From the NCBI GenBank assembly GCA_030765065.1, contig CM060988.1:194988565-195052564 (forward strand): a stretch of DNA of 64,000 nucleotides, given 5' to 3'. Positions 6,516 through 57,041 of the stretch are shown piece by piece (position 1 is the stretch's first letter; each line of letters starts with the position of its first letter). The DNA comes from Deroplatys truncata. Taxonomy: Eukaryota > Arthropoda > Insecta > Mantodea > Mantidae. The translations under genes and the position numbers were made by a program. The notes beneath the pieces were generated by a model. It did no database searches. It was not told the origin of the DNA and worked only from the letters and a program-made list of their open reading frames with translations.

Positions 6516-6770
6516 TCTCAACTTAAATGGTCCACCCTGTATATAAAACGTACCCTCACACAATGGAAGAACTCAAACAAACCATATAAAATGATATCAG
6601 AAATATTATACTGATTGAACTAAATAGATCCAATCTGGATTATAATGAACAGAATATTACTGATTGTGATGTTATCATATAATGAATTGAAGTGAGTCAT
6701 TACATATTAATTCGCATCACAATGGCGCTTGGTATTAACTGAGAAGCGCTTTCGAGAGAAGTGTTTCTCT

Positions 6771-7126
6771 AACGAATTAAAATACATTAAGAATATAGCT
6801 ATTGAAAATGTCTTCAAATCGAAGCTCATTAACAATTTAATTACTAGATACAAAAAGAAACATACCTTACGTATAACCAGTACCTTACAGAACCCGAATA
6901 AAAAGGATTTAATATACAAGAAATTTACATACCATTCAGTGATGTTTGAATATTTTGAAAAATTATTTAGAAAATTTCATATCCAACTGGCGCCTCAGAA
7001 CAGATATAGTTTGAGAAATATGCTGAACACACCTTTGACTAACACAACTGATTATTTAAAAAAGTCAGGTATTTATCAGATTTCATGTCAAGATTGCCAA
7101 GGCTCATGTATAGGTAGAACAAAAAT
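6771..7126 (+). pseudogene. PLE protein fragment ending at the GIY-YIG motif
   Basis: The frame reads through KKFTYHSVMFEYFEKLF, then SGIYQISCQDCQGSCIGRTK, the GIY...IG start of the PLE endonuclease with its paired cysteines. It is cut right after GRTK by the family A insertion. The downstream part resumes at 8263 with a frame equivalent to KIRLSEHQRNIKLK and continues to the C-terminal IPP-DYLMQLIQS block near 8495. The RT domain is missing. The ATG near 6729 lies in the inverted arm and is not a genuine start. Confidence 0.75.
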
Positions 7127-7342
7127 CTGATGTGTTACACTCACATGACTTTCTCTACTCTTGTACAAACTATTTTTCAAACGCTTATTCTCCATATGCT
7201 TCATGTTAATCGAGATGTTAATCTTATTGCTAATTTTCTTGTAATTGCAAGGGAAATTGGTAGGCTTTAAGCGATAGTCAAAAATTTTAAGAGCTGGTTG
7301 CTATGTGGAGTATTCCATTCTCTTTGCATTAGCACGACACAA
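7126..7342 (+). repeat. family A repeat, partial
   Basis: First 217 bp of family A, from TCTGATGTGTTACACTCAC. It stops where a second A copy begins, so two A elements are joined head to tail inside the PLE. Confidence 0.75.
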
Positions 7343-8262
7343 AGAAATCCGATGTGTTACACTCACATGACTTTCTGTACTCTTGTACAAACTATTTTTA
7401 CAAACGCTTATTCTCCATCTACTTCATGTTAATCGAGATAAACATATGCAGACTCTTATCTTATTGCTAATTTTCTTGTAGATGTAAGGGGAAAATATAT
7501 TTACAAGGGCAATATAGAAAAACAGTAGCCTTTAAGCACATACATATCTCTTAATAGCTGGTTGCTAGGTGCAGCACCATTCCCTTTGCCACAGATTATA
7601 ACTCTTTGCATATCCAAGACAAAAAAATGAATAACGAATTCCCATTTGAGAAAATAAGTATTGAAAAATTTAAGGGAATAACAAGCAATATCTCGAAAAT
7701 GGTTCACTCAACAAAAAAATGTATATGACATAAATTGTGTATTTTAATGCGATCTACATTTTTTGTGTAGTAAAATTTTGTCTATCTCTTATGGTTTACC
7801 AGTTATGCAAAAGTCGTTCACAATGAAGAATACTTTTGGAGACATTCCCAGAAAATTCAAGACATACATTTTATTTGTCATGAAAATATCTTAAACCTAT
7901 GATATTTTAATCAAAATCGTTACAGCCATTTTTGAGAAAATTAAACTTTTCAAAAAATCTTCCATGTAAAGGGTAATCTGGAGTGGGGGGATTTTCTTGA
8001 AAACCTTCGTGTCACATCTCTGGAAGATACTGAACTTAAATACCAAGTTTGGTGTTTATCCGACTGTTCGTTTCTGAGTTATGCTGTTCACAGACACACA
8101 CACACGCGCACACACACACACACACGGACATGTTTCCAAAAATGCTTTTTTTGGATTCAGGGTGTCTAAAAACATGTATTTCCGGTGAAATCTCGGTATA
8201 AAATTTTTGGGTGGAATACAATACTTCCCCTACTTACTGTACGTAGTAGAGAAAGTAAAAAG
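7343..8262 (+). repeat. family A repeat, full length
   Basis: Starts TCCGATGTGTTACACTCAC and contains a (CA)n tract at about 8093-8126. It ends CTACTTACTGTACGTAGTAG then AGAAAGTAAAAA. The flanking PLE sequence resumes immediately, and A-runs lie on both sides of the insertion. Confidence 0.85.
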
Positions 8263-8672
8263 AAACTTAAAAATAAGACTAAGTGAACATCAGAGAAATA
8301 TAAAACTAAAAACAAATAGATAAATCAGCAGTTGCCAAACATTTTTGGAACAGTAACCATGAAATAGGACAAGAAATAAAATTATTAAAACCTATACAGA
8401 TTCCTTCACACCTGGAAATTTGAGAAAAGATTTTCATCCACCTCAACATCAAGAATATTTTGAATTTTGAAATTCCGCCTACAGACTACCTGATGCAGCT
8501 GGTCCAATCAAATTATGAGAGAAAAGAAAGAAGACAGATGAGTTCCCAACCTTCACTATAGATGGCAGTAAATCCAAGAACACAAGTTTTAAATTTTTCC
8601 CAGCAGAGAGCAGAAGAATCATCAACTGAATTACTTTTTGGGGGTCAGGGGAATGAACGAGACTTCAGTCAG

Positions 8673-8722
8673 CCAGAGCTGAAGATGAGAGAAACACATC
8701 TCTCGAAAGTGCTTCTCAGTTA
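8673..8722 (+). ncRNA. hammerhead-ribozyme-like core of a PLE
   Basis: CTGAAGA at 8679-8685 is followed by U, a 6-bp stem II (GAGAGA/TCTCTC, loop AACACA) and GAAA. A 2-bp stem III (AG, loop TG, CT) and H17=U follow. Stem I pairs GAG upstream with CUC downstream. PLEs are known to carry hammerheads with very short stem III. The extra U next to stem II departs from the consensus, so activity is uncertain. Confidence 0.55.
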
Positions 8723-9227
8723 ATACCAAGCGCCACTGTGATGCAAATTAATATGTAACAACTCACTTCAATTCATTAGATCCAATCTGAAAGTATTTGC
8801 TGGTACAAGCCCTTTTAGCTATGGAAGAATGAAGAAGCAAAGTCGGAACAAGCATGTCCAGCTGCTGAGATGCAGATTCGTGTGTAAGTTGTAAGGACAT
8901 GTTCAGGAAGCGCTGTTCATGTTCCAAGAACTGGTGAACATAACCAATAACTGGTTATATAGTGCCTCAAATACTTCTCAGGAACGTAAAAGTGTACAAC
9001 CCACAGCAAATTTGTTTGATCCAGATTTAATCAGATTTATCTCTATTTAATAAGCAAGCCTTGAATGTTCACTCACAGTCAGAAGCAGATCCAACATTCC
9101 TTTATGGAGGAGCTAGCACATTTTGAAGCATACCTTACCAATGAGTAAAATGCAGTCCATAATTGAGCATTTTACTTTTCTGGATTTTCAAACATCCTAT
9201 AAGTGATTAATGGATCATCCTTTGGAT

Positions 9228-12603: not shown

Positions 12604-12782
12604 TTTTACTGTCTCTACCACGTATAGAAAGTTGATTGGGAACAAAAGAACATGGTGAGTGACACCTATACCCAGTAGGTAGAGAAGGTATTGCATTCCA
12701 ACCAAAAATTCGATATCGATATTTCACCGGAAATATATGTTTTGAGACCCCCTGAATAAAAAAAAGCATTTTTGGAAACATG

Positions 12783-12836
<54 letters not shown>

Positions 12837-13532
12837 TGTGAACAGCATAACTCAGAAACGAACAGTCGGATAAACCCAAACTTGGTATTTAGGTTCAGTA
12901 TCTTCCAGAGATGCGACACAAAAGTTTTCAAGAAAATCCCCCCACCCCGGATTACCCTTTACATGGAACATTTTTCGAAAATTTTAATTTTCACAAAAAT
13001 GGCTCTAACGATTTTGATTAAAATATTATATGTTTAAGATATTTTCATGACAAATAAAATTTATATGTCGAATTTTCTGGGAATTTCTCCAAAAGTATTC
13101 TTCATTGTGAACGACTTTTGCATAACGGGTAAACCATAAGAGATAGACAAAATTTTACTACACAAAAAATGTAGACCGCGTTAAAATACACAATTTATGT
13201 AATATACATTTTTTTGAGTGAACCATTTTCGAGTTATTGCTTGTTATTCCCTTAAATTTTCCAATACTTATACTTTTTCTCAAATTCGTTATTCATTTTT
13301 TTTTGTCCTGGTAATGCAAAGAGAATGGAATACTCCACATAGCAACCAGCTCTTAAAATATTTGACTATCGCTTAAAGCCTACCAATTCCCCTTGCATCT
13401 AGAAGAAAAGTAGCAATAAGATTAGCATCTCGATATCTCGATTAACATGAAGCATTTGGAGAATAAGCGTTTGTAAAAATAGTTTGTACAAGAGTAGAGA
13501 AAGTCATGTGATGTAACATATCAGATTTTTAA
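12604..13532 (-). repeat. family A repeat, full length
   Basis: Minus-oriented copy. It has a (TG)n tract at about 12785-12838, the conserved core, and the end GAGTAGAGAAAGTCATGTGA near 13494-13513. The several ORFs with runs of THTHTH or CVCVCV are translations of the dinucleotide tract. Confidence 0.8.
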
Positions 13533-15329: not shown

Positions 15330-15495
15330 AAATTCTGATGCATTATATTCACATGACTTCTACCCTCTATCATTTCTTAATGGGTATAAAAACTATTCTT
15401 ACGAAACCATATTTTGCTATCTATTTCATTTTAATCGAGCTATACTACACATTTCGTAATAGACACAAAGAGACAGCGACAGTCAAATGTTTAAA
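15330..15495 (+). repeat. family B 5' fragment
   Basis: Follows the B order (TTCACATGACTTCTACCC, TTTCATTTTAATCGAG) and ends where a family A unit begins. Confidence 0.6.
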
Positions 15496-15496
15496 A

Positions 15497-16343
15497 AATC
15501 TGATGTGTTACACTCACATGACTTTCTCTACTCTTGTACAAACTATTTATACAAACGCTTATTCTCCATATGCTTCATGTTAATCGAGATATCGAGATGT
15601 TAATCTTATTGCTAATTTTCTTGTAGATGCAAGGGGAATTGCTAGGCTTTAAGCGATAGTCAAATATTTTAAGAGCTGGTTGCTATGTGGAGTATTCCAT
15701 TCTCTTTGCATTACCAGGACAAAAAAAAATGAATAACGAATTTCCATTTGAGAAAAAGTATAAGTATTGGAAAATTTAAGGGAATAACAAGCATTATCTC
15801 GAAAATGGTTCACCCGAGAAAAACAATGTATATGACATAAATTGTGTATTTTAACGCGATCTACATTTTTTGTGTAGTAAAATTTTGTCTATCTCTTATG
15901 GTTTACCAGTTATGCAAAAGTCGTTCACAATGAAGAATACTCTTGGAGACATTCTCAGAAAATTCGAGATTACATTTCATTTGTCATGAAAATATTTTAA
16001 ACATATAATATTTTAATCAAAATCATTAGAGCCATTCTTGAGAAAATTAAAATTTTCGAAAATATTCCATGTAAAGGGTAATCCGGGGTGGGGGGATTTT
16101 CTTGAAAACTTTTGTGTCGCATCTCTGGAAGATACTGAACCTAAATACCAAGTTTGGTGTTTATCCGACTGTTCGTTTCTGAGTTATGCTGTTCACAGAC
16201 ACACACACGGACATGTTTCCAAAAATGCTTTTTTTTATTCAGGGGGTCTCAAAACATATATTTCCGGTGAAATCTCGGTATCGAATTTTTGGGTGGAATA
16301 CAATACTTCCCCTACTTACTATACGTAGTAGAGAAAGTAAAAA
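15497..16343 (+). repeat. family A repeat, full length
   Basis: From TCTGATGTGTTACACTCAC to CTACTTACTATACGTAGTAG then AGAAAGTAAAAA. The open frame at 16038-16328 (MRKLKFSK..., ending SNFWVEYNTSPTYYT) is the same coding-like segment found in the copy at 36402-36689. Confidence 0.85.
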
Positions 16344-22090: not shown

Positions 22091-22952
22091 ATTACTTTCT
22101 CTACTACGTATAGTAAGTAGGGGAAGTATTGTATTCCACCCAAAAATTCGATACCGAGATTTCACCGGAAATACATGTTTTGAGGCCTCCTGAATCCAAA
22201 AAAAGTATTTTTGGAAACATATCCGTGTGTGTGTCTGTGTCTGTGTGTCTGTCTGTGAACAGCATAACTCAGAAACAAAGAGTCAGATAAACACCAAACT
22301 TGGTATTTAGGTTCAGTATCTTCCAGAGATGTGACACGAAGGTTTTCAAGAAAATCCCCCACCCCAGATTACCCTTTAAATGGAACATTTTTCGAAAATT
22401 TTAATTTTCTCAAAAATGGCTCTAACGATTTTGATTAAAGTATCATATGTTTAAGATATTTTTATGACAAATAAAATGTATATCTTACATTTTCTGGGAA
22501 TGTCTCCAAAAGTGTTCTTCATTGTGAACAACTTTTGCATAACTGGTAAACCATAAGAGATAGACAAAACATTACTACACAAAAAATGTAGATCACGTTA
22601 AAATACACAATTTATGTCATATACTTTTTTTTGTTGAGTGAACCATTTTCCAGATATTGGTTGTTATTCCCTTAAATTTCCAATACTTTTTCTCAAATGG
22701 GAATTCGTTATTCATTTTTTTTTTTTGTCCTGGTAATGCAAAGAGAATGGAATACTCCACATAGCAACCAACTCTTAAAATATTTGACTATCGCTTAAAG
22801 CCTACCATATTCCCCTTGTATCTACAAGAAAATTAGCAATAAGATTAACATCTCGATATCTCAATTAACATGAAGCATATGGAGAATGAACGTTTGTAAA
22901 AATAGTTTGTACAAGAGTAGAGAAAGTCATGTGAGTGTAACACATCAGATTT
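22091..22952 (-). repeat. family A repeat, full length
   Basis: From ACTTTCTCTACTACG-TATAGTAAGTAGGGG to GTGTAACACATCAGA. It carries a GTGT/CTGT tract at about 22224-22256 and abuts a plus-strand family B copy. Confidence 0.85.
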
Positions 22953-23711
22953 TTTTTTCTATCTACTACATTTTAATCCAAATAAATCTTTGCATAAATA
23001 GCTACATTAACATTTCGTTATAGATACAAAGAGAACAGTGATAGTCAAATATTTAAGAAGTGGACGCTATATGCTCTATGACACAACATCTGAAAATCAA
23101 CAGGACTTTGAAGGAATGGCTAAATATTGAACAATTTGAAGTATTAATAACAGATATCTCAGAAATGGCTTATTCCACAAAAAAAGTATTTTAAATAAAT
23201 TTTGTTTTAAAGAAACCTACATTCTTAGCGCAGACATTTTTGTCTATTGCTTAAAGTTTACCAATTGTACAAGATTATGCAAAATTCTCTCCAAATGAAG
23301 AGGACTTCACAGGCTATTCCCAGAAAATTCAAGATATACATTTTATTTGTCACATAAATATGTTTAATACATGGTATTTTAATCAAAATCGTAAGCCATT
23401 TTGTAGAAAATAAAAAATTTCAAAAAATGTTCCATGCAAAGGCTAGTTGGGGTGCAGCATTTTCTTGAAAATCTTTGTGTCTCATCCTTGAAAGATACTG
23501 AACTTAAATACCAAGTTTGGTACTTAACCGACTTTTCATTTTTGAGCTATGCTGTTCACCGACACACAGACGTACACACGGACATGTTTCCAAAAATGCT
23601 ATATTTGGATTCAGGGGGTCTCAAAATATGCATTTCTGGTGAAATCTCAGTATCAAATTTTTGTGTGCAATACCTTCTCTACCTACTATGTACATGGTAG
23701 AGAAAGTAAAA
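22953..23711 (+). repeat. family B repeat, 5' truncated
   Basis: Runs from CTACATTTTAATCCAAATAA to CTACTATGTACATGGTAG then AGAAAGTAAAA. The frame at 23434-23700 is the coding-like core. Confidence 0.8.
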
Positions 23712-25445: not shown

Positions 25446-25559
25446 AAAGACCCTTTATTATAATTATAATGAACAGAAATACTTTTTATTGTGATGTTAT
25501 CATATGATAATTTAAACTGAGTCATTACATGTTATTTCCCATCACATTAGCGCTAGATG

Positions 25560-25607
25560 TTAACTAAGCTTTCGGGAGATATGTTTCTCCCATCATCAGC
25601 TACGGCC
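25560..25607 (-). ncRNA. hammerhead-like core, decayed stem III
   Basis: On the minus strand CTGATGA (25600-25594), U, stem II GGGAGA/TCTCCC with loop AACATA, then CGAAAGC. Stem II changes relative to the 8.7-kb copy but stays paired. The stem III region lacks several bases compared with that copy, so this one is probably inactive. Confidence 0.45.
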
Positions 25608-26153
25608 GACTAACAGATCGTTCTCTCCCCTAACTCCAAGAAGTATTTCATTAGACGATTCTTCTGCCCTCTGTTGTGAAGAATTGGAAACTGGTGGTGT
25701 TGGATTTGTTGCCAACTGTGGTGAAGGTTGGGAACTCATCTTTCTTCTTTCTTCTCTCTTGTAATCTGATTGGATCAGCTGCATTAAGTAGTCTGTAGGC
25801 GGTATTTCAAAATTCAAAGCATTCTTAATGTAGAGATGAATAAAAATCTTTTCCCAAATTTCCAAGTGTGAAGGGATCTGTATAGATTTTAGTAGTTTTA
25901 TCTCTTGTCCTATTTCATGGTTACTGTTCCAAAAATGGTTGGCCACTGCTGATTTATCTATTTGTTTCAGTTTTATATTTCTTTGGTGTTCACTTAATCT
26001 TATTTTTAAACTCCTTTTAGTTCTACCTATATATGAACCTTGGCAATCATAACATGAGATCTGGTAAATTCCTGATTTTTTTAAGTTATCAGTTGTATTA
26101 GTCAAAGGTGTATTCAACATATTTCTTAAACTGTAGGTATTCTGAGGTGCCAA
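25596..26153 (-). pseudogene. PLE GIY-YIG endonuclease fragment (185 aa)
   Basis: The frame starts after the RT domain. KKSGIYQISCYDCQGSYIGR gives an intact GIY-YIG signature with a C-x2-C pair, followed by TKRSLKIRLSEHQRN, ANHFWNSNHE and the C-terminal NFEIPPTDYLMQL block. Family knowledge: in PLEs this domain nicks target DNA for target-primed reverse transcription. The copy lacks all RT motifs, so it is a 5'-truncated, non-autonomous remnant. The reading frame itself is still open to the C-terminus. The M at 26153 is internal and not a true start. Confidence 0.75.
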
Positions 26154-31295: not shown

Positions 31296-32098
31296 CTCAC
31301 TCACTCACTCACTCACTCACTCACTCACTCACTCACTCACTCACTCACTCACTCACTCACTCACTCACTCACTCACTCACTCACTCACTCACTCACTCAC
31401 TCACTCACTCACTCACTCACTCACTCACTCACTCACTCACTCACTCACTCACTCACTCACTCACTCACTCACTCACTCACTCACTCACTCACTCACTCAC
31501 TCACTCACTCACTCACTCACTCACTCACTCACTCACTCACTCACTCACTCACTCACTCACTCACTCACTCACTCACTCACTCACTCACTCACTCACTCAC
31601 TCACTCACTCACTCACTCACTCACTCACTCACTCACTCACTCACTCACTCACTCACTCACTCACTCACTCACTCACTCACTCACTCACTCACTCACTCAC
31701 TCACTCACTCACTCACTCACTCACTCACTCACTCACTCACTCACTCACTCACTCACTCACTCACTCACTCACTCACTCACTCACTCACTCACTCACTCAC
31801 TCACTCACTCACTCACTCACTCACTCACTCACTCACTCACTCACTCACTCACTCACTCACTCACTCACTCACTCACTCACTCACTCACTCACTCACTCAC
31901 TCACTCACTCACTCACTCACTCACTCACTCACTCACTCACTCACTCACTCACTCACTCACTCACTCACTCACTCACTCACTCACTCACTCACTCACTCAC
32001 TCACTCACTCACTCACTCACTCACTCACTCACTCACTCACTCACTCACTCACTCACTCACTCACTCACTCACTCACTCACTCACTCACTCACTCACTT
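31296..32098 (+). repeat. (TCAC)n tetranucleotide array, about 200 units
   Basis: Almost perfect TCAC repeats for about 800 bp, with one visible change at the right end (CACTTAC). It yields an open frame of SLTH repeats because the unit length has no stop in that frame; this is not a gene. Such uniformity implies recent growth or ongoing conversion. Confidence 0.97.
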
Positions 32099-32116
32099 AC
32101 TAAAGCTTTACTTTTG

Positions 32117-36387: not shown

Positions 36388-37252
36388 TTTTACTTTCTCT
36401 ACTACGTATAGTAAGTAGGGGAAGTATTGTATTCCACCCAAAATTTCGATACCGAGATTTCACCGGAAATACATGTTTTGAGACTCACTGAATCCAAAAA
36501 AAGCATTTTTGGAAACATGTCCGTGCGTGTGTCTGTCTGTGTGTCTGTGTGTCTGTGAACAGCATAACTCAAAAACGAAGAGTCAGATAAACACCAAACT
36601 TGGTATTTAGGTTCAGTATCTTCCAGAGATGCGACACGAAGGTTTTCAAGAAAATCCCCCCACCCCAGACTACCCTTTACATGGAACATTTTTCGAAAAT
36701 TTTAATTTTCTCAAAAACGGCTCTAACGATTTTGATTAAAATATCATATGTTTAAGATATTGTCATGATAATTAAAATGTATATCTCGAATTTTCTGGGA
36801 ATGTCTCCAAAAGTATTCTTCATTATGAACGACTTTTTCATAACTGGTAAACCATAAGAGATAGACAAAATTTTACTACACAAAAAATGTAGATCGCGTT
36901 AAAATACACAATTTATGTCATATACATTTCTTTTGTTGAGTGAACCGTTTGCGAGATATTGCTTGTTATTCCCTTAAATTTTCCAATACTTATACTTTTT
37001 CTCAAATTCGTTATTCATTTTTTTATGTCCTGGACATGCAAAGAGAATGGAATGCGCCACATAGCAACCAGCGTTAAAATATTTGACTATCGCTTAAAAC
37101 CTACCATATTCCCCTTGCATCTACAAGAAAATTATGAATAAGATTGACATCTCGATATCTCCATTAACATGAAGCATATGGAGAATAAGCGTTTGTAAAA
37201 ATAGATTGTACAAGAGTAGAGAAAGTCATGTGAGTGTAACACATCAGATTTT
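36388..37252 (-). repeat. family A repeat, full length
   Basis: From ACTTTCTCTACTACG-TATAGTAAGTAGGGG to GTGTAACACATCAGA followed by a T run. The 95-aa minus frame at 36402-36689 is the best preserved version of the coding-like segment (FLENLRVASLEDTEPKYQVW). Confidence 0.85.
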
Positions 37253-37739
37253 TTTTTTTTAATTTTAAAGCAAACAAATATGAAATGACCAATTAACGCA
37301 CATATAAATGATTGAATAAGGCAATACTAAAAGAACAAAGACATACAATGAAACAATGTTAGAAGAAAGTAATAATTCTATGATTAGAAAAGGTTTTTAA
37401 AGCTTTTACAAATATCCCTGGTGAAGAGATTGAAATATGAACTGTTGGTTGTTTTGAAAATTCATGGTGATTTTGGGGAAGCCAGTAGAACATGGGAGGC
37501 ATCACTATGGACAACAAGGGCTATAAAGATGATTTGTTGCTATCCTTTCAAAGCAGACATTCCAAATGATTTGATGTCAATAGTGGGTAAGTCCAACATT
37601 TCTCAGGTGTCAATGAAGAACTTTGGAATTGTTCCATGGGCACCTGTTAACAGCCCAATCACCACAATGAGGCCAAGGATGACAATGACATGTTGGCGGG
37701 CTGAGGGCAACCCGAAGGTGTGTTAGGCGTGTACCTGCC

Positions 37740-42221: not shown

Positions 42222-43542
42222 CTCGGGCAGATCAAAAAGTAACGCACAATAATTTTTTTTACAAAAAAATTTAATAATTAAAACAACAACAAAAAATCAC
42301 AAATGAACTTACACCTTTTACCTACTTTTCGATATAGTCACCAGGTTTCTCAACACATTTCTCCCATTGTGATACCAGTTTCAATATGCCCTAGTTGTAG
42401 AAGTCCATTTCCTTTGAGTATAGCCATCTTTGGACTGTTGATTTCACTTCCGCATTTGTCGCAAAGCATTGGCCGGCCAGGAATTTCTTCATGGGACCAA
42501 AGAGATGAAAGTCCGATGGTGCAAGGTCCGGAATGTATGGTGGATGCTGGAGCACCTCCTAACCAAATTTTGCGATTTTCTAACCAACAGCAACAACAAC
42601 ATGGGGTGAGTGTTGTCATGAAGAATTTTGACATCGTCAGCATTCATGTTGTGGCGTTTGTCACGAAGGGCACGACGCAACTTCACCAAAGTTTTCATGT
42701 AGGCTGCAGCATTCACAGTGGTCCTGTGTTCAGCAAAGTCCACCAATACAACACCATGCATATCCCAGAACAACATCACAAGCACTTTCCTAGCAGACTG
42801 AGTCACTTTGAATTCTTTTTTCACTGGGGAACCAGCATGTTTCTGCTCCATACTTGTCTGCTTGGTTTTGGGTGTGTGGTGGTATGCCCACGATTCATCA
42901 CCAGTGGCGATTTCTTTCAGAAAGTCATGCTCTTCTGCGGTGCACCGCGTTAGGTGATCCAAGCTCTCATCATCATTCGCTGGCCCTTGTGGTTGTCTGT
43001 CAGGTTCTTAGGCACTCAGTGAGCACTAACTTTACAAAATTTCAACGTGTCATGAACAATATCATACACTGCACCATAGGAAATGTTGAACTGTTGCAAT
43101 AAGGTTCGCAGTTGCACACACCGGTCGTTCAAAATTGCTGCCTCAATGCCTCTGACATTCTGCATGGTTGCAGCTGTTACTCCCGAAGCATGGCAAATCA
43201 CTAAGGTTCACACAGCCCTCTAGGAAGAATGCACACCACATTGCTATGGTCCATACAATCATCCCCATACTGCCATGCATGTTCCTGTGAATATCTCTCG
43301 GTTTATGCCCTTTGGCCCACAAATATCGAAGCACACCTCTCTGCTCTTCACACGTGGACGACAGTAACATGTGTGCCATCTTTGTTGCGTAATTCACGCT
43401 TCTCTAGCTCGAGCTGTAGATGAAACAAAAAATACCCTCTGTAGTGAAAACTTGAAACTATATCTGTGTGAAATTGCAACATTCCAGCTGCAATACCAAG
43501 GCAGAAAAAAATTATTGTGCGTTACTTTTCGATCCGCCCTCA
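42222..43542 (-). mobile_element. full-length degenerate mariner-like element
   Basis: Inverted terminal repeats: left CTCGGGCAGATCAAAAAGTA and right the inverse of GGGCGGATCGAAAAGTAACG, both continuing into GCACAATAATTTTTTT. The length of 1.32 kb is that of a complete mariner. It is inserted in the minus-strand LINE that continues from 43543. Confidence 0.85.
42489..43397 (-). pseudogene. mariner transposase, degenerate
   Basis: The minus-strand frame at 42489-42962 encodes the middle of the protein: HDFLKEIATGDESWAYHHTP (first catalytic Asp in TGDE), KVLVMLFWDMHGVVLVDFAE and VKILHDNTHP (second Asp). The N-terminal part at 43143-43397 is in another frame (EEQRGVLRYLWAKGHKPRDI), with stops and shifts between. 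The PYSPDL motif with the third Asp is damaged by an expansion of leucine codons near 42590. The family is clear; function is lost. Confidence 0.8.
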
Positions 43543-46508: not shown

Positions 46509-47336
46509 ATTACTTTCTCTACTACATATAGAAAGTAGCAGAAGTATTGTATTCCACCCAAAAATTCGATTCCGAGATTTCACCAGAAATACATGTTTTG
46601 AGACTCACTGAATCCAAAAAAAGCATTTTTGGAAACATGTGCGTGCGTGCGTGAACAGCATAACTCAGAAACAAACAGTCGGATAAACACCAAACTTGGT
46701 ATTTACGTTCAGTATCTTCCAGAGATGCGACACAAAGGTTTTCAATAAAATCCCTCCACCCCAGACTACCCTTTACATGGAAAATTTTTCGAAAATTTTA
46801 ATTTTCTCAAAAATGGCTCTAACAATTTTGATTAAAATATCATATGTTTAAGATACTTTCATGACAAATGAAATGTATATCTGGAATTTTCTGTGAATGT
46901 CTCCAAAAGTATTCTTCATTGTGAACGACTTTTACATAACTGGTAAACCATAAGAGATAAACAAAATTTTACTACACAAAAAATGTAGATCGCGTTAAAA
47001 TACACAATTTATGTCATATACATTTTTGTTGTTGAGTAAACCATTTTCGAGATATTGCTTGTTATTCCCTTAAATTATCCAATACTTAAGAGTTTTTCTC
47101 AAATTTGTTATTCATTTTTTTATACCCTGGACATGCAAAGAGAATAGCAACCAGCGCTTAAAAGATTTGACTATCACTTATAACGTACCATATTCTCCTT
47201 GCATCTACAAGAAAATTAGCAATAAGATTGACATCTTGATATCTCGATTAACATGAAGCATATGGAGAATAAGTGTTTGTAAAAATAGTTTGTACAAGAG
47301 TAGAGAAAGTCTTGTGAGTGTAACACATTAGATTTT
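46509..47336 (-). repeat. family A repeat, full length
   Basis: From ACTTTCTCTACTACA-TATAGAAAGTAG to GTGTAACACATTAGA. The CA tract is contracted to GCGTGCGTGCG (about 46641-46652). Confidence 0.8.
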
Positions 47337-47976
47337 TTTAAATCATTTGCTTCTCCTCTGAAATTTATAATAATTGAATTATGAGGTTTCCATTGACTAT
47401 TACCGATATGCCAATGGACAGCAAGTGGGATGGATTGGAGGTTGAAACTGCCCCTCAAAGTCACCCAGAAAAATAAAAAGAATATGTCAGACAAATGAGT
47501 GAAACAACAATTAAAAACACTGCCTTAACTGTACTTTACAAAGCAACAAAGATTTTCAGTAAGTGATTTCTATTATTATATAATGATAGGCATCCCTCCA
47601 CTCAAGTGACAGCTGTGAGAGTATGGCTCCCATTGCCCAAATACCAATTTTGTGATTTGTGTGAAGAACAGTGTTATCTGCTGCCAATTGGAGGGCAATT
47701 ATTTGAATTATGGATCATTTAATATTCTGGAAGATAACCTATAACAACAAGCATTTCTTTGTTGTTCAGTGAAAATTTAAATCAATTTATTTTACTAAAT
47801 ATGTACTATCATTTTTTTATGACATTTTAAATATGTTAACTTTCAGCTCATTTAAAAACCTGAATTATTGTTGGTTATACTGAAAGTAAGGGTTGCTCTA
47901 CACCCACAAAATGTAGGATTCCTTATTTTGTGTGCTGAAAATATGTCCAGCAAATCTATAAGAATTTAAAAAAAAA
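47337..47976. other. unassigned spacer between two divergent family A copies
   Basis: No feature recognised. The copies on either side are in opposite orientation with their TCTGATGTG ends facing the spacer. Confidence 0.4.
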
Positions 47977-48847
47977 ATCTGATGTGTTACATTCACATGA
48001 CTTTCTCTACTCTTGTACAAACTATTTTTACAAACGCTTATTCTCCATATGCTTCATGTTAATCGAGATAAACATTTGCAGAAACTATCTTGTTGCTAAT
48101 TTTCCTGTAGGTACAAGGGGAATATGGTAGGCTTTAACCGATAGTCAAATCTTTTAAGACCTGGTTGCTATGTGGAGTATTCCATTCTCTTTGCATGTCC
48201 AGTACGTAAAAAAAATGAATAACAAATTCCCATTTGAGAAAAAGTATTGGAAAATTTAAGGGAATAACAAACAATATCTCAAAAATGGTTCACTCAACAA
48301 CAAAAAAAAGTATATGACAAATTGTATATTTTAACACGATCTACATTTTTTGTGTAGTAAAATTTTGTCTATCTCTTATGGTTTACCAGTTATGCAAAAG
48401 TCTTTCACAATGAAGAATACTTTTGGAGACATTCCCAGAAAATTGGAGATATACATTTCATTTGCCATGAAAATATCTTAAATATATGATATTTTAATCA
48501 AAATTGTTAGAGCCATTTTTGAGAAAATTAAAATTTTCGAAAAATGTTCCATGTAAACGGTAATTTGGGATGGGGGATTTTCTTGAAAAGCTTTGTGTCG
48601 CATCTCTGGAAGATACTGAACCTAAATACCAAGTTTGGTGTTCATCCAACTTTGTTTCTGAGTTATGCCGTTCACACACACGCACGCGCACACACACACA
48701 CACACGCACACGGACATGTTTCCAAAAATACTTTTTTTGGATTCAGGGGGTCTCAAAACATATATTTCCGGTGAAATCTCGGTATCGAATTTTTGGGTGG
48801 AATACAATACTTCCCCTACTTACTATACGTTGTAGAGAAAGTAAAAA
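47977..48847 (+). repeat. family A repeat, full length
   Basis: From TCTGATGTGTTACATTCAC to CTACTTACTATACGTTGTAG then AGAAAGTAAAAAAA. The CA/CG tract is at about 48674-48711. Confidence 0.85.
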
Positions 48848-49086: not shown

Positions 49087-49098
49087 AACAGTAAAGTT
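49087..49098. repeat. left TSD of the PLE palindrome
   Basis: AACAGTAAAGTT, repeated exactly at 53351-53362. Confidence 0.8.
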
Positions 49099-49189
49099 CA
49101 ACTTTTGAAGATTTAGAAGCTTGTAACAGTGATGTGTCATAATTTAAAATAGAGAGTTGAGGGTTGTTACACTACATCACTATGATAAT

Positions 49190-49245
49190 CTTACTTGAAC
49201 GCGTTTCGGGAGACGGCTTGTCCCCATCGTCAGCATTCTCTCTCA
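49190..49245 (-). ncRNA. hammerhead-ribozyme-like core, left PLE end
   Basis: Reverse complement of the right-end core: CTGACGA at 49233-49227, stem II GGGGAC/GTCTCC, then GAAAC. Confidence 0.55.
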
Positions 49246-51032
49246 ACTGATATTTGCCGGTCATCGTCTGGGGGATGTGTGTGGTTTGTGGTGTTCTCTG
49301 GTGCTGGGCTGATGAACCTCCAAAGGCTGTTGGGTGGCGGCAGTTCAAAATTCATTAGGTGATTCCTGTGTTTGACAATATGTATTTTTTCCCAGATGTC
49401 CAATTCATTGCTGCTGTTGATCGGTTTTAAGAGTTTTATGTTTGGAGTGATATCATGGTTTGAAGACCAGAAATGATGTGCTACTGCTGATTTATCTTGC
49501 TGCTTTTGGTAAATGCATCTCATATGCTCTTTAAGTCTTATTTCAAGATTTCTTTTTGTTCTTCCTATATATACCAGGTTACATTCATTACAATCAATTT
49601 GATATATACCAGCTGATTTATCGTTGGGGATAGGATCTTTTGTTCTGTTGCATAGTAGTTTCTGTATGTTGTGGTTATTCTGTGGAGACAGGGTGATGTT
49701 GTATTTTTTGAAAATCCTTTGAAATTTATGATGTGTCCAAGGGTGATAAGTGAATTTTCTATATGCTTGTGGTTTTTGTTGTCTGAGTAATGTAGTCATT
49801 TGTTGGATGTATTTCTGTCTTTCAAACCTTTTAATCTTCTTATCTATTGTTTTTTTCTGGTATCCATTCATAGTGGCTATGTTGATAATGTGTTGGTATT
49901 CTTTCTGGTATTCCTCTTTCTCCATTGGTATATGTACTAACCTGTTTGTAATACTATTTAAAATTGCATGTTTGTGGCTTGTAGGATTGTAGCTATTATT
50001 TTTAATGTAGTTTTCTGTGTGCGTTGGTTTTCTGTAAATGCCAAACGTTAGTTTGTTGTGTGCATTATTTCTGATGATCCTGATGTCTAGGTAAGGTAAT
50101 TGGCCATTTTCTTCTTTTTCCATTGTGAATTTTATAGATCTTTTTTGTAAATTTAATAATTTCAAAGCATCTTCTGAAAGTTTTTTTGGAACAATAGCAA
50201 AAATATCATCTACATATCTATACCAGGTTTTGAATAGATGTGGGAAAGATTTTGTAATATGGGATTCAAAATGGCTCATATATAGTTCTGCTAAAAATGG
50301 TGAAAGGGGGTTTCCCATAGTTAGGCCTGAGGTTTGTTTAAAGATTTTGTGATGGAATGAAAAGAAATTCTGGTCCAGACATAATTTTGTTAGTTTCAGG
50401 TAATCTTCTGTTTGTGCTCTAGGTGTGCCATTGTTTAATATCCAATTTTCTAGGAGTGGTAATAATTCTTCTTTTGGTATGCTTGGGAAGAGTGCAGTGA
50501 CATCAAATGATACCATCATGTCTGTGGGTGATATATTTATATTTGAAAGGTGACTGGTTAATTCTAAAGAATTTTTTATGCTAAGACTTTTGAACATAGG
50601 CATGGAGTTGAAGGTATTTGAAAGCCATTTTGCTAGTTTATATGTGGGAGAGTTTATGTTATTCACTATGGGCCTCATTTTGTTGCCGAGTTTGTGTATT
50701 TTTGGTAGTGCATATAACCTAGGTATGATGGGAAAATCTGGTTTAATTCTGGATTTTTCGGCTTTTGTTAATGTTTTGGTTTCTATCAATGTATTCTGGA
50801 GTGACTTGGTGCATTCTTTTAATGGATTTTTGCTGATTTCTATGTACTCTGGGTTATGTAGTAATTGCATAACTCTAGATTCATAATCATCTAGGTCTAA
50901 TATCACTAATGTGTTTCCTTTGTCTGCTTTGGTGTATACTACAGGTTTTGACTTTAGAGATTTGATAATTTTTTTTTTGATGTGGTACGTAGTGGTGTTT
51001 TTGGGCTTGTATCTGGTCCAATATTGGTTCAC
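49230..51032 (-). CDS. Penelope-like RT/GIY-YIG endonuclease, left copy
   Basis: A 600-aa open frame identical to the right copy except L for Q at residue 47 and S for T at residue 262. It holds all RT motifs, including FDVTALFPSIP with Asp177 and YRYVDDIF with Asp275/276, and the endonuclease GIYQIDCNECNLVYIGRTKR at 475-494. It would be copied by target-primed reverse transcription. This copy lacks the upstream N-terminal region present at 51135-51462 because the element is 5'-truncated near 51113. The ATG at 51032 follows a shared frame break, so the natural start is not certain. Intact catalytic residues suggest the source element was recently active. Confidence 0.85.
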   Translation of the reverse strand: MNQYWTRYKPKNTTTYHIKKKIIKSLKSKPVVYTKADKGNTLVILDLDDYESRVMQLLHNPEYIEISKNPLKECTKSLQNTLIETKTLTKAEKSRIKPDFPIIPRLYALPKIHKLGNKMRPIVNNINSPTYKLAKWLSNTFNSMPMFKSLSIKNSLELTSHLSNINISPTDMMVSFDVTALFPSIPKEELLPLLENWILNNGTPRAQTEDYLKLTKLCLDQNFFSFHHKIFKQTSGLTMGNPLSPFLAELYMSHFESHITKSFPHLFKTWYRYVDDIFAIVPKKLSEDALKLLNLQKRSIKFTMEKEENGQLPYLDIRIIRNNAHNKLTFGIYRKPTHTENYIKNNSYNPTSHKHAILNSITNRLVHIPMEKEEYQKEYQHIINIATMNGYQKKTIDKKIKRFERQKYIQQMTTLLRQQKPQAYRKFTYHPWTHHKFQRIFKKYNITLSPQNNHNIQKLLCNRTKDPIPNDKSAGIYQIDCNECNLVYIGRTKRNLEIRLKEHMRCIYQKQQDKSAVAHHFWSSNHDITPNIKLLKPINSSNELDIWEKIHIVKHRNHLMNFELPPPNSLWRFISPAPENTTNHTHPPDDDRQISVEREC

Positions 51033-51134
51033 ACTGTGATTGTATTAAACTTTTATCCTTATCTGTAAGGTGGTTGGAGGCTATTTCAATATCAGCAACA
51101 AAGTTTTCTGTATTATACGCAACTTAGCAAGAAA

Positions 51135-51608
51135 ATGAGCGCCAAAACAATGAAACTGAAAAAGAAACTAAACAACCTTATATTCAAACAAAAAAACTCC
51201 CTGGAATACCGGGAAAAATCTCCTAGACATAACCAAAAACGGAAATCAACATATAAACATAACCTAAACAATGAACCTACCACAGGCCAATATGTAGTTA
51301 ACCTCTCAAAAGAACCATTCACCAGCACTGAGCTATCTGTCTTGAACAATGGCCTAAAAACATGTTTCAACTTCACAAAAAATACAGAAAACTTTGTTGC
51401 TGATATTGAAATAGCCTCCAACCACCTTACAGATAAGGATAAAAGTTTAATACAATCACAGTGTGAACCAATATTGGACCAGATACAAGCCCAAAAACAC
51501 CACTACGTACCACATCAAAAAAAAAATTATCAAATCTCTAAAGTCAAAACCTGTAGTATACACCAAAGCAGACAAAGGAAACACATTAGTGATATTAGAC
51601 CAAGATGA
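51135..51608 (+). CDS. N-terminal part of the PLE protein, right copy (frame-shifted from the RT frame)
   Basis: A 157-aa frame with a lysine-rich start (MSAKTMKLKKKLNNLIFKQK) and LSKEPFTSTELSVLNNGLKT, a region found before the RT domain of PLEs. It overlaps the 600-aa frame by about 146 bp. Residues after about 115 (QIQAQKHHYVPHQKKNYQ) are out of the RT frame, so the real homologous part is roughly residues 1-115. The left copy shares the same junction sequence (CAAAAACACCACTACGTACC). Hence the shift was already in the template. It could be a damaged lineage, ribosomal frameshifting or a genuine two-ORF layout. Confidence 0.6.
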   Translation: MSAKTMKLKKKLNNLIFKQKNSLEYREKSPRHNQKRKSTYKHNLNNEPTTGQYVVNLSKEPFTSTELSVLNNGLKTCFNFTKNTENFVADIEIASNHLTDKDKSLIQSQCEPILDQIQAQKHHYVPHQKKNYQISKVKTCSIHQSRQRKHISDIRPR

Positions 51609-53265
51609 TTATGAATCTAGAGTTATGCAATTACTACATAACCCAGAGTACATAGAAATCAGCAAAAATCCATTAAAAGAATGCACCAAGTCACTCCAGA
51701 ATACATTGATAGAAACCAAAACATTAACAAAAGCCGAAAAATCCAGAATTAAACCAGATTTTCCCATCATACCTAGGTTATATGCACTACCAAAAATACA
51801 CAAACTCGGCAACAAAATGAGGCCCATAGTGAATAACATAAACTCTCCCACATATAAACTAGCAAAATGGCTTTCAAATACCTTCAACTCCATGCCTATG
51901 TTCAAAAGTCTTAGCATAAAAAATTCTTTAGAATTAACCAGTCACCTTTCAAATATAAATATATCACCCACAGACATGATGGTATCATTTGATGTCACTG
52001 CACTCTTCCCAAGCATACCAAAAGAAGAATTATTACCACTCCTAGAAAATTGGATATTAAACAATGGCACACCTAGAGCACAAACAGAAGATTACCTGAA
52101 ACTAACAAAATTATGTCTGGACCAGAATTTCTTTTCATTCCATCACAAAATCTTTAAACAAACCTCAGGCCTAACTATGGGAAACCCCCTTTCACCATTT
52201 TTAGCAGAACTATATATGAGCCATTTTGAATCCCATATTACAAAAACTTTCCCACATCTATTCAAAACCTGGTATAGATATGTAGATGATATTTTTGCTA
52301 TTGTTCCAAAAAAACTTTCAGAAGATGCTTTGAAATTATTAAATTTACAAAAAAGATCTATAAAATTCACAATGGAAAAAGAAGAAAATGGCCAATTACC
52401 TTACCTAGACATCAGGATCATCAGAAATAATGCACACAACAAACTAACGTTTGGCATTTACAGAAAACCAACGCACACAGAAAACTACATTAAAAATAAT
52501 AGCTACAATCCTACAAGCCACAAACATGCAATTTTAAATAGTATTACAAACAGGTTAGTACATATACCAATGGAGAAAGAGGAATACCAGAAAGAATACC
52601 AACACATTATCAACATAGCCACTATGAATGGATACCAGAAAAAAACAATAGATAAGAAGATTAAAAGGTTTGAAAGACAGAAATACATCCAACAAATGAC
52701 TACATTACTCAGACAACAAAAACCACAAGCATATAGAAAATTCACTTATCACCCTTGGACACATCATAAATTTCAAAGGATTTTCAAAAAATACAACATC
52801 ACCCTGTCTCCACAGAATAACCACAACATACAGAAACTACTATGCAACAGAACAAAAGATCCTATCCCCAACGATAAATCAGCTGGTATATATCAAATTG
52901 ATTGTAATGAATGTAACCTGGTATATATAGGAAGAACAAAAAGAAATCTTGAAATAAGACTTAAAGAGCATATGAGATGCATTTACCAAAAGCAGCAAGA
53001 TAAATCAGCAGTAGCACATCATTTCTGGTCTTCAAACCATGATATCACTCCAAACATAAAACTCTTAAAACCGATCAACAGCAGCAATGAATTGGACATC
53101 TGGGAAAAAATACATATTGTCAAACACAGGAATCACCTAATGAATTTTGAACTGCCGCCACCCAACAGCCTTTGGAGGTTCATCAGCCCAGCACCAGAGA
53201 ACACCACAAACCACACACATCCCCCAGACGATGACCGGCAAATATCAGTTGAGAGAGAATGCTGA
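51463..53265 (+). CDS. Penelope-like RT/GIY-YIG endonuclease, right copy
   Basis: Six hundred residues. In order: YTKADKGNTLVILD (33-46), PRLYALPKIHK with MRPIV (104-123, RT motif 2), MVSFDVTALFPSIP (173-186, motif A, Asp177), SGLTMGNPLSPFLAELYM (235-252, motif B), YRYVDDIFAI (271-280, motif C), LPYLDIRI and FGIYRKPTHTENYI (motifs D/E, 312-343), a basic linker, then GIY (475-477), YIG (488-490), Arg491/494 and the Cys481/Cys484 pair followed by His503 and HHFW (519-522) of the PLE endonuclease. The C-terminal block NHLMNFELPPP is at 557-567. No internal stop. Full Penelope proteins are longer, since the N-terminus is in the overlapping frame at 51135-51608. The hammerhead-like core follows directly after the stop. 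Confidence 0.9.
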   Translation: MNQYWTRYKPKNTTTYHIKKKIIKSLKSKPVVYTKADKGNTLVILDQDDYESRVMQLLHNPEYIEISKNPLKECTKSLQNTLIETKTLTKAEKSRIKPDFPIIPRLYALPKIHKLGNKMRPIVNNINSPTYKLAKWLSNTFNSMPMFKSLSIKNSLELTSHLSNINISPTDMMVSFDVTALFPSIPKEELLPLLENWILNNGTPRAQTEDYLKLTKLCLDQNFFSFHHKIFKQTSGLTMGNPLSPFLAELYMSHFESHITKTFPHLFKTWYRYVDDIFAIVPKKLSEDALKLLNLQKRSIKFTMEKEENGQLPYLDIRIIRNNAHNKLTFGIYRKPTHTENYIKNNSYNPTSHKHAILNSITNRLVHIPMEKEEYQKEYQHIINIATMNGYQKKTIDKKIKRFERQKYIQQMTTLLRQQKPQAYRKFTYHPWTHHKFQRIFKKYNITLSPQNNHNIQKLLCNRTKDPIPNDKSAGIYQIDCNECNLVYIGRTKRNLEIRLKEHMRCIYQKQQDKSAVAHHFWSSNHDITPNIKLLKPINSSNELDIWEKIHIVKHRNHLMNFELPPPNSLWRFISPAPENTTNHTHPPDDDRQISVEREC

Positions 53266-53305
53266 CGATGGGGACAAGCCGTCTCCCGAAACGCGTTCAA
53301 GTAAG
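53252..53305 (+). ncRNA. hammerhead-ribozyme-like core, right PLE end
   Basis: CTGACGA (53262-53268), stem II GGGGAC/GTCTCC with loop AAGCC, and GAAAC (53288-53292). The third A with C pairs with a following GU across a GC loop (2-bp stem III), with U as H17. Stem I has only two clear base pairs (UG with CA) before mismatches. A U/C mismatch lies at the base of stem II. Confidence 0.6.
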
Positions 53306-53350
53306 ATTATCATAGTGATGTAGTGTAACAACCCTCAACTCTCTATTTTA

Positions 53351-53362
53351 AACAGTAAAGTT
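53351..53362. repeat. right TSD of the PLE palindrome
   Basis: AACAGTAAAGTT, same as 49087-49098. Confidence 0.8.
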
Positions 53363-56105: not shown

Positions 56106-56451
56106 ATGTATACACTATACTATATTATATAGTATACTACACCATAGCTAATATGAAGCTCAAATATTCTGACGGATATTTTATTTGGAATGTGTAATGT
56201 ATATCAGTGATGGCTGCTGAGACATTCTATTGATGGTGCCATCCCCCCAAAAGTGAAAACAAATATAATATGTTTACCACCTTTGTGCAGTATCATCAAA
56301 CTTATTATGTGGTCTTGTCAGTAATTCATATATTTCATAATATAATGTACATATCAAACAAAGTGTTTAGAGGTAAAGAAATAAGCAATTATTAATATGG
56401 CGCTCTTCTTATACACAGTTGTAAAGAGCACAGTATGAGTTTGATATAATA
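56106..56451. other. unassigned DNA
   Basis: AT-rich, nothing recognised. Confidence 0.4.
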
Positions 56452-56612
56452 CGAGGGCTATTTTTTTTCAACTTCCAATCACACAGGTGCGCAACCACAC
56501 GAGCGGCGGAAACTGTTTGTGCATGGAGGGCAACTGCGCATGTCCCCCACTCTACCCTCAGTCACAGCCAACTTCACCATACCATTGTGAGCCTAGTTTT
56601 TGGCATGGAAAC

Positions 56613-57041
56613 ATGGCCACTATGATTGACTCTCCTGCCAAATGTGAGTTGCGTAGTGTTTATTGTGAGATATTACAACTACTGCAGAGAGCCATACAGA
56701 ATAAACAAAGAGGCAAGCTGACATCCGGGGTTGTCTCAATTCATGACAATGCCCACCCTCACAGTGCTCATGTCACCCAACAAATTCTTCAGGAATTTCA
56801 ATGGGACGTTTTCAACCACCCACCGTACAGTCCTGATTTGGCACCAAATGATTTTCACCTCTTCCCTGGGCTGAAAAAGTGGCTGGGAGGGCGGAAGTTT
56901 GAGAATGATGAAGTCCTTCAAACCAACGTCCGTACCTATCTTAACTCACTGGCAGCAACATACTCTGCAGAGGGGATCGAAAAGCTTGTCCACAGGTATG
57001 ACAAATGCCTCAACCTTAATGGTGACTATGTTGAAAAGTAA
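56613..57041 (+). pseudogene. mariner transposase with large in-frame internal deletion
   Basis: The natural start is probably ATG 56613 (MATMIDSPAKCELRSV, the canonical mariner N-terminus). Near 56660 it jumps to the C-terminal half: YCEILQLLQRAIQNKQRGKL, VSIHDNAHPHSAHV (second catalytic Asp) and HPPYSPDLAPNDFHLFPGLK (third Asp, D34D), ending YDKCLNLNGDYVEK. The helix-turn-helix region and the first Asp (TGDE) are missing, yet the frame is uninterrupted over 143 codons. The cysteine-rich residues upstream of 56613 in the same frame are 5' UTR. Confidence 0.85.

Follow-up and report, generated by a model that had tools for sequence, protein, structure and literature searches.

The window analyzed here, a 64,000-nt stretch of contig CM060988.1 from the mantis Deroplatys truncata (positions 194,988,565 to 195,052,564 of assembly GCA_030765065.1), carries a recent palindromic insertion of a Penelope-like element (PLE), in which two mirror copies lie head to head inside one short target duplication. 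Across the genome, insertions of the same family follow a strict rule at their outer 3' ends: exactly one of the two arms carries a short tail in 38 of the 39 head-to-head insertions for which both ends were read. We suggest, with a probability of roughly 0.8, that such insertions arise by paired target-primed reverse transcription (TPRT), in which both cut target strands act as primers at two coupled start sites; these lie about 46 nt from each other and probably belong to a single RNA.

At the window locus, the left copy (49099 to 51114, minus strand) is 5' truncated and tailed, and the right copy (51115 to 53350, plus strand) is 5' truncated and tailless; their 5' ends fall at about 734 and 469 in unit coordinates, respectively. 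Alignment of the inverted arms (49143 to 51114 and 51381 to 53352, 1,972 nt each) was gap-free, with 2 mismatches and 99.9% identity; the mismatches, at 51602/50893 and 52246/50249, are both A/T. The sequence AACAGTAAAGTT abuts both outer 3' ends (49087 to 49098 and 53351 to 53362, the first AA of the latter being ambiguous with the element end ...TTTTAAA) and has no further occurrence in the window; the chance of this 12-mer at a given fixed place is 2.2e-7. The inner junction contains no copy of the duplication. With both mirror copies inside one target duplication, the locus is best read as a single retrotransposition event. An original prediction, made from the DNA letters alone, had described a young, single PLE integration of two head-to-head copies enclosed by one 12-bp target duplication, and all of this was borne out. 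It had also described a near-perfect palindrome, which is accurate for the arms but not for their continuity, as a 266-nt spacer (51115 to 51380) separates them. The AT skew is +0.42 in the spacer and, in the coding stretches, +0.30 on the right and −0.30 on the left. This strand composition, together with mapping to the unit, identifies the spacer as the right copy's own 5' sequence, a plus-strand extension belonging to that copy only. At the outer ends, 44 nt (49099 to 49142, minus strand, unit 1 to ~46) are present on the left copy and absent from the right; this tail lies between two putative start sites of reverse transcription.

Each arm contains a 600-aa frame (49230 to 51032, minus strand; 51463 to 53265, plus strand) that is part of an 830-aa open reading frame (ORF) of other copies, and the two products differ at two residues, as had been noted (Q and T on the right, L and S on the left). 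The right-arm protein, which was the one searched, contains a reverse transcriptase domain (RVT_1, E = 8.7e-12) and, C-terminal in the same ORF, a GIY-YIG domain (E = 1.4e-5, residues 474 to 509 of 600), and by these domains the element is assigned to a known kind, the canonical endonuclease-containing (EN+) PLEs. The frame is broken, a point absent from the original prediction, at an A-run (51517 to 51526, plus strand), mirrored as a T-run in the left arm (50969 to 50978). The length difference at this run is found in both arms and in an insertion on C10 (L009), whose two arms differ from each other there by one nucleotide, and is absent from the other sampled copies covering the place. The frame break came along with the template; since both window arms are broken, the break also occurs in L009, and unbroken copies exist, the window copy was probably mobilized by protein from other copies. 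Both arm mismatches are singletons among the sampled copies and may be copying errors, so that they give only an upper age limit. A putative hammerhead-like core (CTGACGA-stem II-CGAAAC) was matched by pattern in the right copy (53262 to 53298, plus strand) and in the left copy (49197 to 49233, minus strand). The more general core CTGANGA-stem-GAAA occurs at 53262 and 49233, at two other PLE ends in the window and at one stray position, whereas mononucleotide shuffles average 0.05 occurrences each; an Rfam search gave no hammerhead match. Minimal hammerhead motifs have been reported in the pseudo-long terminal repeats (pLTRs) of PLEs (PMC7761336).

The window is part of contig C14 of a 4.29-Gb assembly that contains the family. 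Members were sampled by similarity to query stretches, taking the best 40 of 1,163 to 1,708 candidates per search, and hence young copies. The first search (best 40 of 1,163 candidates) yielded 24 insertions including the window's, and all 24 sequences were examined; two further searches with 3'-end queries yielded 35 new places, of which 17 two-ended and 17 one-ended ones were examined and C6:209045792 was left out. Both ends could be read in 39 head-to-head insertions overall (22 + 7 + 10). The unit is 2,700 nt long and occurs in tandem arrays (L014+15, L016+17, L013, L011, and others). Tandem or partial-tandem units with pLTRs are thus a feature of the family; the window copy itself, being 5' truncated, has no 5' pLTR. 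Sampled copies are mostly 99 to 100% like the reference unit, and the 830-aa frame, starting at unit 121-122 in full units, is unbroken in 19 of the 30 stretches that reach the start region (3 of the others begin past the start codon). Judged from these sequences, the family looks recently active, which supports the earlier suggestion that its source may still be so.

The palindrome is the usual product of this family. Head-to-head architecture was found in 22 of the 24 insertions of the first search, and the view of the original prediction that a near-complete inverted partner is exceptional finds no support in this family: the second arm runs continuously from ~30 nt (L026, L037+28), or barely beyond the tail (L030), to several tandem units, and the arrays L014+15 (16.9 kb) and L016+17 (16.3 kb) each lie within one target duplication. 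Flank repeats of at least 10 bp, with a median of 12, surround 33 of 38 head-to-head insertions; when flanks of different loci were mismatched, repeats of at least 10 bp appeared in 0 of 291 pairings and repeats of at least 8 bp in 12 of 291. The tandem units of the L014/L015 array (G000:C2:202338000-202357800) have in common one additional T within the tail region, which the other listed tails are without; because of this shared T, the array is a copy of one sequence, by way of a multi-unit or circular RNA or of later amplification.

Outer ends in the family are of two types, tailless (unit ~0) and tailed (unit ~46, with a tail of 42 to 48 nt). Most ends lie within a few nucleotides of these two positions; at a small number of others, as many as 20 nt separate the element from the flank repeat. 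An alternative end reading placed three tailless ends at 18-19 and tailed ends as far as 62; we attribute these odd values to matches that run on into the flank by chance, in agreement with the motif-based reading. By the latter, the tail is on the left in 23 and on the right in 15 of the 38 canonical insertions. Among 3' ends without a partner, 8 of 17 are tailed; since about half of the unpaired ends carry a tail, independent choice at each end predicts that about every second insertion has exactly one tail, and the probability of 38 out of 38 under such choice is, by arithmetic, ~4e-12. The tailed arm of L042 apparently lacks some internal sequence and yet keeps the distal end. The ATG in the tail had suggested that the tail might be the N terminus of the ORF; this idea was dropped, as the 830-aa frame starts farther in.

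One-tailed pairs also occur in older PLE insertions. A second head-to-head insertion, from an older family, occupies 6625 to 8789 of the window between copies of the 13-bp duplication TAGATCCAATCTG (6625 to 6637 and 8777 to 8789). Its arms (6677 to 6770 and 8688 to 8781) are 94 nt long and 93% alike, a tail of 42 to 44 nt is present on the left arm only, and the right copy is interrupted by ~1.1 kb containing another repeat. A third, older and more decayed head-to-head insertion (836 to 1639) has arms ~83% alike, a 48-nt tail on the right arm only (1581 to 1628) and an 11-nt flank repeat with one mismatch (CATATCATCTG and CATGTCATCTG); its inner spacer matched the PLE protein no better than shuffles did in either direction. 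An alignment can be made of the tails of these two insertions, the main element, and a copy near 25.5 kb. In a genome search for an older PLE family distinct from that of the palindrome (query 25520 to 25820, best 40 of 2,009 candidates), exactly one tail was found in 6 of 6 two-ended pairs, of which about 5 are independent, two of the six being probably copies of one event; one of these tails was judged by eye, the motif test having missed a variant. Near-identical PLE insertions with near-identical flanks were seen at L086/L087 and L088/L089 (C12 and C3), which is probably a segmental duplication.

The two arms of an insertion also appear to share their template. Within insertions, the arms differ at 48 of 38,585 sites (0.0012), compared with a mean of 0.0032 for shuffled partners (24 insertions; 0 of 2,000 shuffles were as low). 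The discordant sites between arms (61) comprise 57 singletons, 4 rare variants, and no common variant, whereas 35 rare variants occur in the two arms of their insertion alike. Further, 7 of 29 pairs have arms whose lengths, tail excluded, are no more than 30 nt apart; the expectation is 0.73, and none of 5,000 shuffles reached 7. The arms of L032+36 stop at one and the same position in the unit but differ in length by 2,701 nt, which is one unit. The simplest reading is that two copies are made of what is probably one RNA, sometimes a multi-unit one, and that both copies at times run off its 5' end. Each of the 29 insertions has its own pair of inner 5' ends, and the junctions show overlaps of 1 to 4 nt in 9, none in 5, and filler of 1 to 24 nt in 15, without a common rule among them. 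The window locus had suggested that the tailless arm is always the longer one, an idea that was dropped: the longer arm is the tailed one in 10 of 28 insertions and the tailless one in 17 (the window locus included), with one tie. The original prediction that the asymmetry of the two copies may record how the second strand was primed is strongly supported for the 3' ends by the single tail in 38 of 39 insertions; no rule emerged for the 5' ends.

In the mechanism that we propose, the GIY-YIG enzyme would make a staggered cut leaving 3' overhangs of ~12 nt, and both 3' ends of the target would then prime reverse transcription. One cDNA would begin at the proximal site, unit position 0 (...TATTTTAAA), and the other ~46 nt farther 3', at the distal site, so that this second cDNA gains the tail. 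The start sites would be coupled, with one of each used in nearly every event, and both cDNAs would copy the same RNA sequence toward its 5' end, probably on one molecule that at times holds several units. Each cDNA would end by truncation or run-off, and a head-to-head junction would form between the cDNA 3' ends, in many cases through a small number of filler bases. A staggered cut with both 3' ends acting as primers would explain why one duplication encloses both copies, why these lie head to head, and why their 5' ends vary. The geometry of the overhangs, the simultaneity of the two reactions, a dimeric enzyme, the joining at the 5' ends, and the choice of one RNA molecule over two transcripts of one locus are parts of the mechanism that we infer from these patterns. 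LINE-1 and R2 elements integrate by TPRT with 5' truncation and short target duplications, and the proposed reaction resembles theirs in these respects.

The canonical (GIY-YIG) Penelope elements of Adineta vaga, such as Pen2a, have inverted pLTRs, duplications of 8 to 10 bp, and an optional 31-bp tail at one inverted pLTR (PMC3846280), so that the ingredients of the one-tail rule are already in print there. Like these elements, the family described here has a single ORF with reverse transcriptase and GIY-YIG domains (830 to 842 aa there, 830 aa here), tandem or partial-tandem pLTRs, a 5' inverted pLTR, a short target duplication, and a one-sided tail, which is optional in A. vaga (PMC3846280). 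Unlike in those elements, the inverted partner here is often near complete or a multi-unit array, and the tail measures 42 to 48 nt instead of 31 bp, with exactly one tail in nearly every sampled head-to-head insertion (PMC3846280). More generally, PLEs have been described in which a second copy follows in tandem, as well as inverted pLTRs and short extensions at the 3' end (PMC8969392); the tail in the window and those of the family are slightly longer than the 30 to 40 nt reported for PLE tails. In vitro, the purified protein of the Poseidon element PAc of Anolis carolinensis cleaves and extends both strands, and two adjacent internal start sites on its RNA match the tail, with no difference in start site between the top and bottom strands (PMC11167929). 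The family here resembles PAc in having two start sites that define a tail, as well as tandem repeats, AT-rich targets and, if the putative core is one, a hammerhead motif; it differs in that the PAc start sites lie inside the ORF, whereas those here precede the 830-aa frame by ~75 and ~120 nt (PMC11167929). A term search of the main text of that article found no discussion of inverted genomic copies (PMC11167929), and the accessible part of PMC12910113 contains nothing on the one-tail question. In the open-access literature searched, with subscription papers mostly outside it, neither an obligation to have one tail nor a link between head-to-head copies and two-strand priming was stated. The strict pairing of one tailed with one tailless end is the new part, and it is what this genome adds to the two start sites found in Anolis.

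Self-priming, in which the 3' end of a cDNA made at one target end folds back and primes a copy of that cDNA as the second arm, was proposed by Arkhipova and colleagues from palindromic inverted junctions and head-to-head order (PMC3846280), and the near-equal arm lengths in 7 of 29 pairs would fit it. However, a second arm that copies the first cannot acquire a tail that the first lacks, and if the tailed arm came first, it would have to be the longer one, with the loop in its own orientation, which the counts of longer arms contradict wherever the tailless arm reaches farther 5'. The window locus is such a case, its 266-nt spacer belonging to the tailless right arm and its 44-nt tail to the left arm, and we consider self-priming improbable. 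An origin from two independent RNAs, primed on both strands with a random start site each, agrees with the lack of a start-site difference in vitro (PMC11167929). It would nevertheless leave only about half of the insertions with one tail, and their arms as unlike as those of different insertions, which overall they are not; we regard it as similarly improbable.

The inverted structure within one target duplication also recalls twin priming of a single RNA. In the twin priming of LINE-1, the inverted and direct parts cover different, nonoverlapping segments of the RNA, whereas both arms of the window locus contain the same 1,972 nt of template, which refutes this explanation there; we consider it hardly credible. 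Palindromes are, moreover, a recognized problem of sequencing and assembly. Judged from the assembled sequence, an artefact is unlikely at the window locus because the arms stop at the family's two 3' end types, the flanks are unlike and yet bear a common duplication, and the architecture recurs elsewhere. An artefact in general, or two separate insertions in opposite orientations, is very improbable given the enclosing 12-bp duplication, the fact that no two of 29 insertions share a pair of inner 5' ends, and the absence of the duplication from the inner junction.

Several observations weigh against paired TPRT as a general account. The sample consists of the young copies closest to the queries, and in its first 24 insertions two (L022 and L033) have one arm only, tailless and between flank repeats. 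No flank repeat of at least 8 bp was found by the motif-based reading in 5 of 38 insertions (L031+35, L043, C1_1463, C6_540, and C15_83), although another end reading gave 11 bp for C1_1463 and 8 bp for C15_83; in the older family of the genome search, a flank repeat is present at the ends in only 2 of 6 pairs (12 and 8 nt). In L039, L040, and L042, which have short arms, the arms are no more alike than those of different loci. Gene conversion between the arms, or the use of two transcripts from a single source locus, could also produce variants common to both, and the near-equal inner stops could come partly from self-priming. In addition, the absence of a strand difference in start site in vitro suggests no known force that would impose one of each. 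The sole exception among the 39, L013 (G000:C1:33907000-33916500), left the canonical sites unused: its ends, at unit 126 and 171, lie just inside the ORF start within a 13-bp duplication, to which as many as 5 nt at the right end may belong. A long A tract is present at its inner junction. That the shifted ends of L013 are again ~40 to 45 nt apart hints that the spacing is fixed more than the sequence.

Other features of the window include a ~0.9-kb repeat in many copies that are 81 to 86% alike (among them 7341 to 8260, 12673 to 13528, 15493 to 16342, 22092 to 22956, 36388 to 37255, 46510 to 47339, and 47971 to 48846). One of its copies is contained in the sequence that breaks up the GIY-YIG part of the older PLE (6625 to 8789), and an inverted pair is located directly left of the palindrome. 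A CTCA array of 201 copies, 99% matching, spans 31296 to 32101; on one strand, three of its frames are open, with (SLTH)n as the repeat. Open stretches at 42489 to 43007 (minus strand) and 56445 to 57041 (plus strand) resemble, by eye, what we take to be remnants of a mariner-type transposase. No relatives of the PLE were found among the viral contigs searched.

In this young and abundant family, the rule of one tailed and one tailless end, with arms of the same RNA sequence among the sampled insertions, argues against both simple self-priming and independent priming, and turns the puzzle of inverted PLE copies into a testable model, a paired reverse transcriptase. A stronger form of the model, for which we see the chances as evenly balanced, holds that integration is obligatorily paired, a two-subunit enzyme sitting on one RNA in such a way that each of the two start sites, ~46 nt apart, takes one target 3' end. 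If this is true, every insertion would be two-armed, carry exactly one tail, and contain the same RNA copied twice, and the inverted pLTRs, tails, arrays, and palindromes of the family would all result from a single reaction combined with random stopping at the 5' end.

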